The translations under genes were made by a program, and so were the position numbers. From Alphaproteobacteria bacterium (GTDB lineage Bacteria > Pseudomonadota > Alphaproteobacteria > UBA828), in NCBI GenBank assembly GCA_022826665.1, contig JAJDUK010000051.1, positions 1 through 64,000 on the forward strand: DNA of 64,000 nucleotides, read 5' to 3'. This document shows, in pieces, positions 359 through 3,494 of this stretch. Within the stretch, counting starts at the first letter, position 1. Every line of letters starts with the position of its first letter. The notes below the pieces were generated by a model that saw nothing but the letters and a program-made list of their open reading frames with translations, did not search any database and was not told the DNA's origin.

Positions 359-691
359 ACCGGACAGCAGTGGACTTGATCCGGGCATCTTTCTCCGCGG
401 CACTCACATGGATGGCCAGGACACCACGACAGCCTCCCGGCAGTGCGGGGGCTTCCAGACCCGATTCCAGGCGCGGTGCCGAAGGGCCAGCGGCATCACC
501 GCCATAAACGGGCCGACAACGCAAGTCCTTGACCCCGATCCCCCTCGCCGATACTAGGTCCCATCGTGTCACGGCTGTGAGGTGTGAGGAAACCGGGGAA
601 AACCGTTATTTCCGGGTTGCGTAGGGGGTTCTCGATGGCACAGTGATGGTGGTCGGAGGCGCCGGTTGGACCCTCGGGTCCAGCCGCTGTG
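359..691. other. Intergenic stretch between transposase tail and tRNA
   Basis: About 330 bases with no convincing gene. Short open frames exist on both strands but have no recognisable domain or ribosome binding site. It probably contains the right end of the insertion element and the downstream flank of the tRNA gene, which is read leftwards. No clear T-run terminator for the tRNA is visible. Confidence 0.5.
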
Positions 692-781
692 TGGTGGAGG
701 GAGTGGGATTCGAACCCACGGTACGGCAAGCCGTACACCGGTCTCGGAAACCGGCGCCTTCGACCGCTCGGCCACCCCTCC
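692..781 (-). tRNA. Class II tRNA, serine-type body with CCG anticodon
   Basis: The minus strand folds into a complete cloverleaf of 90 nt including an encoded CCA. It has a 7-bp acceptor stem (GGAGGGG with TCCCTCC, last pair G-U), a D arm of the serine type (GCCGAGCGGTCGAAGGC), a perfect 5-bp anticodon stem (CCGGT with ACCGG), a long variable arm (GTACGG CTTG CCGTAC) and a canonical T arm (GTGGG TTCGAAT CCCAC). The 7-nt loop is TTCCGAG, so with U33 in place the anticodon is CCG at 747-745, which would read CGG (Arg). The discriminator is A; bacterial tRNA-Ser normally has G. Body and long arm say serine, the anticodon says arginine. It could be a mistranslating chimera, a decayed tRNA-Ser(CGA), or a sequencing artefact. 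Confidence 0.85.
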
Positions 782-905
782 GGCACCGTCCCATACTATA
801 TCGAGGCGTAGCACGACCCACAAGCGCGACCGATGGGGGATGACACGAGATATCGGCAGAGACGACGGGCTGTTCGGTCAGGCGTATAAGCGACCAAATT
901 CTCCC

Positions 906-964: not shown

Positions 965-1020
965 CCCCGCAACATGGTGCGGTGCACAGTGTGGGCGGCG
1001 CGGGGCAGCATCGCGGGATG
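965..1020 (+). repeat. Dispersed intergenic element, copy 1 (before DUF3486 gene)
   Basis: The core CCCCGCAACATGGTGCGGTG continues as CACAGTGTGGGC. It is nearly the same as a stretch at 21683-21740 and more distantly like one at 6680-6718. Copies 1 and 2 share not only the core but also the distance of 30 nt from GTGCAC to an ATG, with ATCGCG just before it. The core can form overlapping short hairpins (GCAC..GTGC, GCACC..GGTGC in copy 2). Function unknown; a small mobile repeat or a conserved leader are both possible. Confidence 0.55.
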
Positions 1021-1833
1021 AGCCACCACACCACCCGCGAGCACAGTCACGCCATGCAAAACGACCCCCCCAAGAGCACAACGGCCGGGACGTTCGGGCG
1101 CTCCTCCATCAAGCGCCTGCCGCCCAAACTCCGCGAGGCCGTGGACGCGGCCATCGCGGACGGCGCCACCATCGACGAGATCACCGCCCGCATCCGGGCC
1201 GAGGGCGAGACATGCTCGCGCTCGGCCGTCGGCCGTTACGTCAAGAACGTGCGCGACCTGATCCGCCAGCAGCAGGAGACCGACCGCACCATCAAGGCGT
1301 GGGTGGACGCGCTCGGAGAGCGCACCGAGGGCCAGGCGGGACTCGTCCTGATCGAGACCCTGCGGACCATGGTGCTCGCCACCATGGCCGATCTCAGCGC
1401 GCGGGAAGAGCCCGTGTCCTTGCAGGATCTTTCCCGCCTCTCTCTCATCCTCAAGCGCATCGAAGGCACCGACAAGCTGCGCAAAGACCGGGAGCGGGCG
1501 GCGAAGAAGGCGGCGAACGACGCAGACCGCGCCAAGGGCCAGGGCGGGCTCTCGCCGGAGGCCGTCGCCATCATCCGCGCGGAGGTGGAAGGCAGGCCCC
1601 CGCCGCCGCCTGCTCCCCGCACCGTCACGTCGGTGCCGGTGGACCCGTGGAACCCTGCGGAAGCTCGCCTATACCCATCAATCCCAGCTGATCCCGGCGA
1701 ATCCCACTCAATCCCGGATAATCCCGACGAATCCCACTTGAGCCCGGATAATCGCTATGAATCCTGGACGGAAATTGCTCCGCGCGTGTTTCGCACCAGC
1801 CCCACGTCGATCCTGTCCCTCGGGCCGGAGTGA
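1018..1833 (+). CDS. DUF3486 / phage Mu gp27-like protein with repetitive C-terminus
   Basis: About 271 residues from the ATG at 1018; an alternative ATG at 1054 gives 259. After a low-complexity start, residues about 25-75 show the DUF3486 pattern (GRSSIKRLPPKLREAVD, then a helix-turn-helix-like IDEITARI and CSRSAVGRYVKNV), as in Mu gp27, a terminase-associated protein. A helical, charged middle (RKDRERAAKKAA) follows. The last 55 residues are encoded by a 10-bp tandem array and read as PDNPDESH-like decads. No other phage gene is nearby, so this is a remnant or a domesticated gene. The start is uncertain because no strong ribosome binding site precedes either ATG. Confidence 0.7.
   Translation: MSHHTTREHSHAMQNDPPKSTTAGTFGRSSIKRLPPKLREAVDAAIADGATIDEITARIRAEGETCSRSAVGRYVKNVRDLIRQQQETDRTIKAWVDALGERTEGQAGLVLIETLRTMVLATMADLSAREEPVSLQDLSRLSLILKRIEGTDKLRKDRERAAKKAANDADRAKGQGGLSPEAVAIIRAEVEGRPPPPPAPRTVTSVPVDPWNPAEARLYPSIPADPGESHSIPDNPDESHLSPDNRYESWTEIAPRVFRTSPTSILSLGPE
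1671..1770 (+). repeat. 10-bp tandem array (ATCCCNNNNN units)
   Basis: Nine consecutive 10-base units from 1681 begin ATCCC or a one- to two-base variant (ATCCC six times, then AGCCC, ATCGC, ATCCT), preceded by a degenerate unit at 1671. The last five bases of each unit vary among a few forms (ACTCA, GGATA, GACGA, ACTTG). The array lies within the 3' end of the DUF3486 gene. Because 10 is not a multiple of 3, three units give one 10-residue protein period. A 10-bp spacing puts every ATCCC on nearly the same face of the helix. Confidence 0.85.
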
Positions 1834-1865
1834 GGCGCAGTCGGAAGTGAGGCGGGAAAAGCCGT

Positions 1866-3494
1866 TCAGGCGTCCGGCAGGCGGTAGTCCTGAAACATCT
1901 CGCGCAGGCGAGACTTCTGGATCTTGCCGGTGGCGGTCAGCGGCAGCTCGTCGACCAGCACCACGTCGTCGGGCAGCCACCACTTCGCGACCCTGGTGGC
2001 GAGGTAGGCGTTGATGGTGTCCTTGTCCGGCGCGCAGCCGTCGCGCGGCACGACCACCATGAGCGGGCGCTCCTCCCACTTGGGATGGAAGACGCCGATG
2101 ACGGCGGCCTGCTTCACGTCGGGGTGGCCCACCGCCGCATTCTCCAGGTCGATGGAGCTGATCCACTCGCCGCCCGACTTGATCACGTCCTTGGTGCGGT
2201 CGGTGATGCGCATGAAGCCGTGCTCGTCGAGGGTCGCGACATCGCCGGTGGGGAACCAGCCGTCGTCGTCGAGCTTGTCTCCGCCCTCGCCCTTGAAGTA
2301 GCCGCTGGCGGCCCAGTTGCCGCGCACCCACATGTCGCCAAAAGTCTTGCCGTCGCGGGGCACCGGCGCGCCGTCGGCATCGGTGATCTGGAGCTCCAGG
2401 CCGAACTGTACGCGGCCCTGTTGGCTGAGCACTGCCTGGCGCTCTTCGTCGGAGAGCGCGTCGATCTCCGGCGTCGCCGTTGCCATGGTTCCGAGCGGCG
2501 AGGTCTCAGTCATGCCCCAGAGCTGGTGCACCGTCACCCCGTAAGGGTCGGCCAGCCGTTCGATCATCGCCCGCGGCACCGCCGAGCCGCCGATGGCGAC
2601 GCGCTCCAGGCTTTCGACCGTCTTGCCGCTCTCGTCGAGATGGTCGATCAGCATGGTGAAGACCGTCGGCACGCCGAGCGCGAAGGTCACCCCCTCCCCT
2701 TCGATCAGCTCCTGCAGGCTCTGGCCGTCCATCTTCGTGCCGGGCAGTACCAGGCCCGCGCCGGAGAGGCAGCCCAAATAGGGCAGCGACCAGGCGTTGC
2801 CGTGGTACATCGGCGCAATCGGCATCAGCACGTCGTGGGCGGAGATGCCCATGGCACTATTCTGGCAGGCGGCCATGGCGTGCAGCAGGGTCGAGCGGTG
2901 GCTGTAGAGCACGCCCTTGGGATTGCCGGTCGTGCCCGAGGTGTAGCAGAGCGAGGACGCGGCGCGCTCGTCGAAGAGCGGCCAGTCGTAGTCCTCGCTC
3001 TCGCCCACGAGCAGGGTCTCGTAGCAGAGGACGTTGGGAAGCGCTGTCTCCGGCATGTGCGCCTCGTCGGTCATCACCACGACCTGCTCGACCGTGGTGA
3101 GCTGGTTCGCGATGCGCTCCACCAGCTCGACGAAGGTGAGGTCCACGAACAGCACCCGGTCCTCGGCATGGTTGATGATGTAGACGATCTGCTCGGTGAA
3201 GAGGCGCGGGTTCACCGTGTGCAGCACCGCGCCCATGCCGGAGACGCCGTAGAAGAGCTCCTGGTGGCGGTAGCCGTTCCAGGCCAGCGTGCCGACCCGA
3301 TCCCCGTGGCCGATGCCGAGCCGGGCCATGAGGTTGGCGACGCGCCGCGCGCGCCGCTCGCATTCGGCGTAGCCGTAGCGGTGGATCGGGCCTTCGACGG
3401 TGCGCGAGACCACCTGGCGGTCGCCGTGATACTCGGCTGCATAACGAATCAGCGACGAGATCATCAGCGGGATCTCCTGCATCAGGCCGTGCAT
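1866..3494 (-). CDS. AMP-forming acyl-CoA ligase (DmdB-like)
   Basis: 542 residues, cytoplasmic; activates a carboxylic acid to its CoA thioester through an acyl-adenylate. All core motifs are present: the P-loop-like [35 protein letters not shown] with [18 protein letters not shown], and the C-terminal catalytic lysine in [16 protein letters not shown]. The N-terminus ([20 protein letters not shown], then [11 protein letters not shown]) and the length resemble the 3-methylmercaptopropionate-CoA ligase (DmdB) group and related medium-chain ligases, so short or medium-chain substrates are likely. The start ATG has a strong GGGGAGGAG site directly upstream. It stands alone, divergent from the SDR gene. 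DmdB itself would imply a role in DMSP demethylation, but motifs alone cannot settle the substrate. Confidence 0.88.

Follow-up and report, generated by a model that had tools for sequence, protein, structure and literature searches.

We found a tRNA gene with a serine-type class II body and the anticodon CCG in a 64,000-nt stretch of an alphaproteobacterial contig, which is called the window here. The existence of this isotype-mismatched gene, tRNA-Ser(CCG), was confirmed at 692-781 on the minus strand. With a probability of about 0.6, the gene is a surplus tRNA-Ser paralogue, private to this genome, with its anticodon switched to CCG. It can probably be serylated and is likelier to be a by-product of duplication, silent or expressed at a low level, than a selected mistranslation device. 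Isotype-mismatched tRNAs with switched anticodons are a route by which sense codons begin to change meaning, and the bacterial precedents compared here were the allo-tRNAs, with their unusual structure, and the tRNA-ProX family. A tRNA-Ser of canonical fold with CCG beside a normal tRNA-Arg(CCG) would offer a natural test of whether a frequently used codon can be ambiguous between Arg and Ser in bacteria. A silent gene would be an example of a genome-private mismatched tRNA, which anticodon-based annotation would misfile as an extra tRNA-Arg.

Sequence and fold of the gene

ARAGORN called a single tRNA in the window, labelled Arg (ccg), and the Rfam tRNA model matched the same interval and strand with 55 bits (E 2e-10). 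Its sequence from 5' to 3' was GGAGGGG TG GCC GAGCGGTCGAA GGC G CCGGT TTCCGAG ACCGG T GTACGG CTTG CCGTAC C GTGGG TTCGAAT CCCAC TCCCTCC A CCA. The acceptor stem had 7 bp with one G7.U66 wobble. The other stems were the D stem (3 bp), the anticodon stem (5 bp, CCGGT/ACCGG), the variable stem (6 bp) and the T stem (5 bp). Standard pairing was found at 26/26 stem pairs, and the T loop and the encoded CCA were intact. Marks of a pseudogene, such as broken stems or lost conserved positions, were absent. The geometry of the U32.G38 pair in the anticodon loop was considered as a sign of inactivity and was dismissed because tRNA-Leu(GAG) of the same genome shares this pair. The first-pass annotation had described intact stems, a CCG anticodon and A73. 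All three were borne out, by the complete pairing, by the ARAGORN call together with the loop TTCCGAG carrying U33, and by the base at 695. The coordinates are collected in Table 1.

Table 1. Features of the tRNA-Ser(CCG) locus, in window coordinates
Feature	Position	Strand	Basis and remarks
Class II tRNA gene of serine type with anticodon CCG	692..781	-	90 nt including CCA; ARAGORN, Rfam, Ser model
Anticodon loop TTCCGAG (U32 U33 C34 C35 G36 A37 G38)	743..749	-	Sequence; 7 nt
Anticodon CCG (34-36), cognate codon CGG	745..747	-	ARAGORN and alignment
Variable arm, 6-bp stem GTACGG/CCGTAC, loop CTTG	721..736	-	Stem identical to own tRNA-Ser(GCT)
Position 20, U instead of the A20 required by ArgRS	763..763	-	Alignment with own tRNAs; determinant from PMC9976931
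Discriminator A73	695..695	-	G73 in 23/23 aligned Ser tRNAs of relatives and 4/4 own Ser
Encoded CCA end	692..694	-	Sequence
DDE transposase 3' part (DDE_Tnp_1), truncated by contig start	2..358	+	Pfam PF01609
Phage Mu gp27-like ORF	1021..1833, within window 965-1838	+	Pfam PF11985; several copies in genome and congeners
Acyl-CoA synthetase (AMP-binding)	1866..3494	-	Pfam; congener counterparts 88-92% match, no adjoining tRNA
Near-copy (16/17), 17 nt, of the tRNA D-arm/anticodon-stem stretch 749-765, inverted, in 3' trailer	651..667	+	
Weak promoter-like pair TTGTGG (818-823), 17 nt, TATAGT (795-800)	795..823	-	By eye; 8/12 consensus bases

Relationship to the other tRNAs of the genome

A serine-specific covariance model, for which 23 tRNA-Ser genes from relatives were used, gave tRNA-Ser(CCG) 102.1 bits, a score inside the range of the four ordinary tRNA-Ser genes of the genome (84.8-109.5 bits), and tRNA-Tyr and tRNA-Leu scored 77 and 46.7-57.9 bits. 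By its sequence the body is of the serine type, as had been read at first pass. Identity was 86% to Ser(GCT), 80% to Ser(CGA), 76% to Ser(TGA) and 71% to both Ser(GGA) and tRNA-Tyr. The best matches among 60 relatives did not exceed 86%, and every one to which ARAGORN was applied proved to be an ordinary Ser tRNA.

The closest relation, tRNA-Ser(GCT), shared the variable stem, the T arm and the type of D arm with tRNA-Ser(CCG). However, the latter carried CCG, A73 instead of G73, G7.U66, C27-G43 and a shorter variable loop. Ser(GCT) was also conserved in the genus, with an identical sequence in six genomes, whereas tRNA-Ser(CCG) was not. Outside the variable loop, the two differed by eight substitutions (A7G, U16C, G27C, G34C, U36G, A38G, U43G and G73A), and the double change from G27.U43 to C27-G43 preserved the pair. 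Eight random substitutions spared all 26 pairs in only about 1.3% of trials. If Ser(GCT) is the true ancestor, this mildly hints at past selection on folding rather than free decay. The D arm and the anticodon stem also matched Ser(TGA), and the acceptor and A73 resembled those of tRNA-Tyr; the gene may therefore be a mosaic. In the sequence of events that we propose, a tRNA-Ser would have been duplicated, probably from the Ser(GCT) lineage, and the anticodon would then have changed to CCG.

Surroundings of the gene

The insertion element that the first-pass annotation had placed nearby was identified as a DDE transposase, of which only the 3' part was visible before the contig end. A second partial copy of the same transposase end was found at the start of another contig. 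The flank 418-691 was single-copy in the genome and unmatched in the family except for short repeats. A short GC-rich, REP-like repeat at 900-950 was widely scattered over the genomes of congeners. The normal tRNA-Arg(CCG) had a copy of the Mu gp27-like element at a distance of about 330 bp. A link between the element and that neighborhood was considered, and the proximity was taken as coincidence because the other copies inspected had no tRNA near them. In the congeners, no tRNA was within reach of the acyl-CoA synthetase gene. The possibility that tRNA-Ser(CCG) served as an integration site was dismissed, as a second copy of the tRNA ends was absent from the window.

Scanning for promoters and terminators around the gene gave no good candidate. 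The promoter-like pair noted by eye fell below the scan threshold, so it is no evidence of function. The inverted fragment of the tRNA in the trailer was beyond chance, since neither 1000 shuffles (0/1000) nor the 3' flanks of the other tRNAs of the genome (0/32) reached it. We considered whether this antisense stretch acts as a silencer. With the fragment, the folding cost of the cloverleaf was 5.9-7.6 kcal/mol, compared to 6.8-9.5 kcal/mol for normal Ser precursors with trailer, and silencing was dismissed because this cost was within the normal range.

The gene might be an inert relic beside an insertion element, which is untranscribed, unmatured or uncharged, and we consider this rather unlikely. 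The weak promoter, the discriminator A73, which is contrary to serine identity, and the neighborhood, with a transposase end and the repeated Mu gp27-like element, are all consistent with it. So are the tRNA-derived fragment in the trailer and the presence elsewhere in the genome of two more odd tRNA-like singletons, one of which directly adjoins a transposase-like ORF. However, unbroken stems, an intact CCA and a normal Ser-model score speak against a relic, and the inverted fragment left the folding cost no higher than that of normal Ser precursors. A surplus paralogue is the reading that we prefer. Such a gene, fixed recently and either silent or expressed at a low level, would more likely be a product of duplication and mobile-DNA activity than a selected mistranslation device.

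tRNA complement and the meaning of CGG

The tRNAs of the genome, a draft of 4.63 Mb in 106 contigs (99.2% complete, 4% contamination), were gathered by Rfam search and by stretches of genome. Ordinary Ser genes with the anticodons GCT, CGA, TGA and GGA were found, all with G73. The ordinary Arg genes had CCG, ACG, TCT and CCT, and all four combined a short variable loop with A20 and G73. One SerRS in the genome was above the curated cut-off. With a normal Ser set, a tRNA-Arg(CCG) and one SerRS, tRNA-Ser(CCG) is therefore a surplus gene. The first-pass annotation had asked whether a normal tRNA-Ser(CGA) and tRNA-Arg(CCG) exist elsewhere in the genome. Both were present, so the genome is not the one lacking any other tRNA-Ser(CGA) that it had named as evidence against itself.

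Among the arginine codons of the window ORFs, only one was used more often than CGG. The CGG frequency of about 20 per 1000 codons is approximate because the choice of ORFs was greedy, and it agreed with the free usage that had been stated for this codon. In the SerRS of the genome, CGG encoded R171, R174, R260, R316, R360 and R361, which aligned with arginine in solved bacterial SerRS, and R260 is the motif 2 arginine. Reassignment of the codon was ruled out on this basis: conserved SerRS arginines are encoded by CGG, so the genetic code is not reassigned.

Distribution in relatives and wider collections

Searches of seven congeners and 13 further members of the family found no copy of tRNA-Ser(CCG), and searching the genus with the Ser model gave no further serine tRNA of the CCG type. 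Whether close relatives keep the CCG anticodon had been raised at first pass, and the genus and family searched held no copy. Wider scans used a pattern that demanded AAGGC in the serine D arm, the CCG anticodon, GTTCGANTC in the T arm and, in two of the three genome scans, A37. Among 385 genomes of the class, the gene at 692-781 was the sole match, and 398 genomes of the phylum added one sequence that lacked tRNA features. None of the 21 matches in 84,980 species genomes was a serine-type CCG tRNA, and the same was true of the four matches in viral contigs. The pattern misses bodies like that of the Ser(CGA) of this genome, and the relatives are mostly drafts, so the gene is to be described as not found in these collections and not as unique in nature. 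An origin as a phage or plasmid tRNA was dismissed, the best phage and plasmid matches being 78% or lower.

Comparison with known systems

A selected mistranslation tRNA, kept and expressed, perhaps under stress, would insert serine at CGG and diversify the proteome. The intact cloverleaf, the encoded CCA and the structure-preserving substitutions are consistent with this, as are the indifference of SerRS to anticodons (PMC9976931), the frequency of CGG (about 20 per 1000 codons) and the natural dual-identity tRNAs of Streptomyces (PMC10365949). Against it, the relatives searched showed no conservation, and SerRS was single. In addition, no synthetase paralogue was found beside the gene: the nearest genes within 6 kb were the transposase, of which the contig end leaves only the 3' part visible on that side, the Mu gp27-like ORF, acyl-CoA synthetase, SDR, GNAT and FAA hydrolase. 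Essential arginines, including R260 of SerRS motif 2, use CGG, so misreading beyond a low level should be costly. We regard selection for mistranslation as improbable. The deliberate mistranslation suggested by the first-pass annotation found no support in a gene with neither partner synthetase nor conservation, in a genome with catalytic arginines at CGG.

The tRNA-ProX family (ProA, ProN and ProT of Streptomyces and Kitasatospora) is similar in that the body of one isotype carries the anticodon of another, so that charging and decoding disagree. However, tRNA-ProX is a conserved family encoded beside the ProRSx paralogue (PMC10365949), and neither clade conservation nor an adjacent synthetase paralogue was found for tRNA-Ser(CCG). 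In allo-tRNAs, too, serine identity goes with anticodons for other amino acids, among them arginine (PMC7609411), but their acceptor/T branches are 8/4 or 9/3, in contrast to the canonical 7/5 here. In CUG-clade yeasts, tRNA-Ser(CAG) could arise by duplication and anticodon change because SerRS ignores the anticodon (PMC11415595). It is likewise a tRNA-Ser duplicate with a changed anticodon. The codon was reassigned across clades there, whereas tRNA-Ser(CCG) is a singleton in a genome where CGG still means arginine. In yeast, an engineered tRNA-Ser bearing the arginine anticodon UCU inserts serine at arginine codons, which shows that expression of a tRNA of this kind does have that consequence (PMC8473984). 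That tRNA differs in being engineered and eukaryotic and in reading AGA, not CGG. Judged by these comparisons, tRNA-Ser(CCG) is probably not a dedicated mistranslation system.

Charging identity

Serine identity is independent of the anticodon, and G73 of E. coli tRNA-Ser aids serine identity in vivo and acts as an antideterminant against LeuRS and TyrRS (PMC9976931). C2-G71 of tRNA-Leu is an antideterminant against SerRS (PMC9976931). In the alignment, tRNA-Ser(CCG) had a variable arm of the serine type, kept G2-C71 and was without the Leu-type C2-G71. Among the class II tRNAs of this genome, A73 was the state of Leu and Tyr. By the E. coli rules, serylation would be the likeliest charging. 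All aligned Ser tRNAs of relatives have G73, and therefore serylation of a tRNA with A73 may be poor. The barrier against LeuRS and TyrRS is removed because A73 replaces G73, and some leucylation or tyrosylation is possible under the same rules.

If tRNA-Ser(CCG) is transcribed and processed, it would receive serine from the cell's only SerRS, less efficiently than normal owing to A73. At CGG, the charged tRNA would then be a competitor of the ordinary tRNA-Arg(CCG), and serine would be inserted at a low rate. Some leucine might also be inserted at CGG, A73 having removed the LeuRS barrier. A stronger version, in which the canonical fold is expressed and CGG is ambiguous (Arg, Ser and some Leu) at a level tuned by A73 and weak expression, appears quite improbable. 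If it were true, misreading of CGG could feed back on serine charging because the catalytic arginine of SerRS is itself encoded by CGG.

It is very improbable that the gene is an unusual arginine isoacceptor, charged by ArgRS through C35 and G36 and reading CGG correctly, with a cosmetic serine body. In bacteria, A20 is the main determinant of arginine identity, to which C35 and U/G36 are added (PMC9976931). tRNA-Ser(CCG) had C35 and G36; however, U20 replaced A20, and the short-variable-loop class I body of the genome's own Arg tRNAs was missing. The first-pass annotation had stated that C35 and A73 both fit the preferences of ArgRS. C35 did, but A73 did not, as G73 was present in 4/4 Arg tRNAs of the genome. 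The mixed arginine identity that it drew from these bases is weak because A20 is missing and all Arg tRNAs of the genome (4/4) combine A20 with G73. The isoacceptor was dismissed on the lack of A20 and G73, and arginylation is unlikely by the E. coli rules.

An assembly error or a contaminant contig was the least credible explanation: the draft state, the 4% contamination and the contig start 691 bp away inside the transposase allow it, but the neighboring gene matched congeners at 88-92%, the tRNA sequence was unlike any other in the assembly, so that no repeat was collapsed, and a single base-call error cannot turn a serine anticodon (NGA, GCT or ACT) into CCG.

Other odd tRNA genes

Two further odd genes were observed in the genome. 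A singleton at L171:3325-3403 (-), equal to G000:C100:12324-12402, had an Arg-type body (A20), a Val GAC anticodon, the loop TTGACGG and U32.G38. Nothing in the genus matched it at more than 77% identity, and it adjoined an ORF (L171:2336-3316) that resembled an IS1595/ISXO2-type transposase by eye. A tRNA-like gene at L170:2778-2849 (+), equal to G000:C46:6277-6348, scored 42.6 bits and had a Glu/Gln-type body, a GCG (Arg) anticodon and a mismatched T stem; it is probably decayed. In a congener, a contig (L133:1-300) started inside tRNA-Ser(CGA) and continued with an ORF resembling a tyrosine integrase by eye, which suggests that tRNA-Ser(CGA) is an integration site there.
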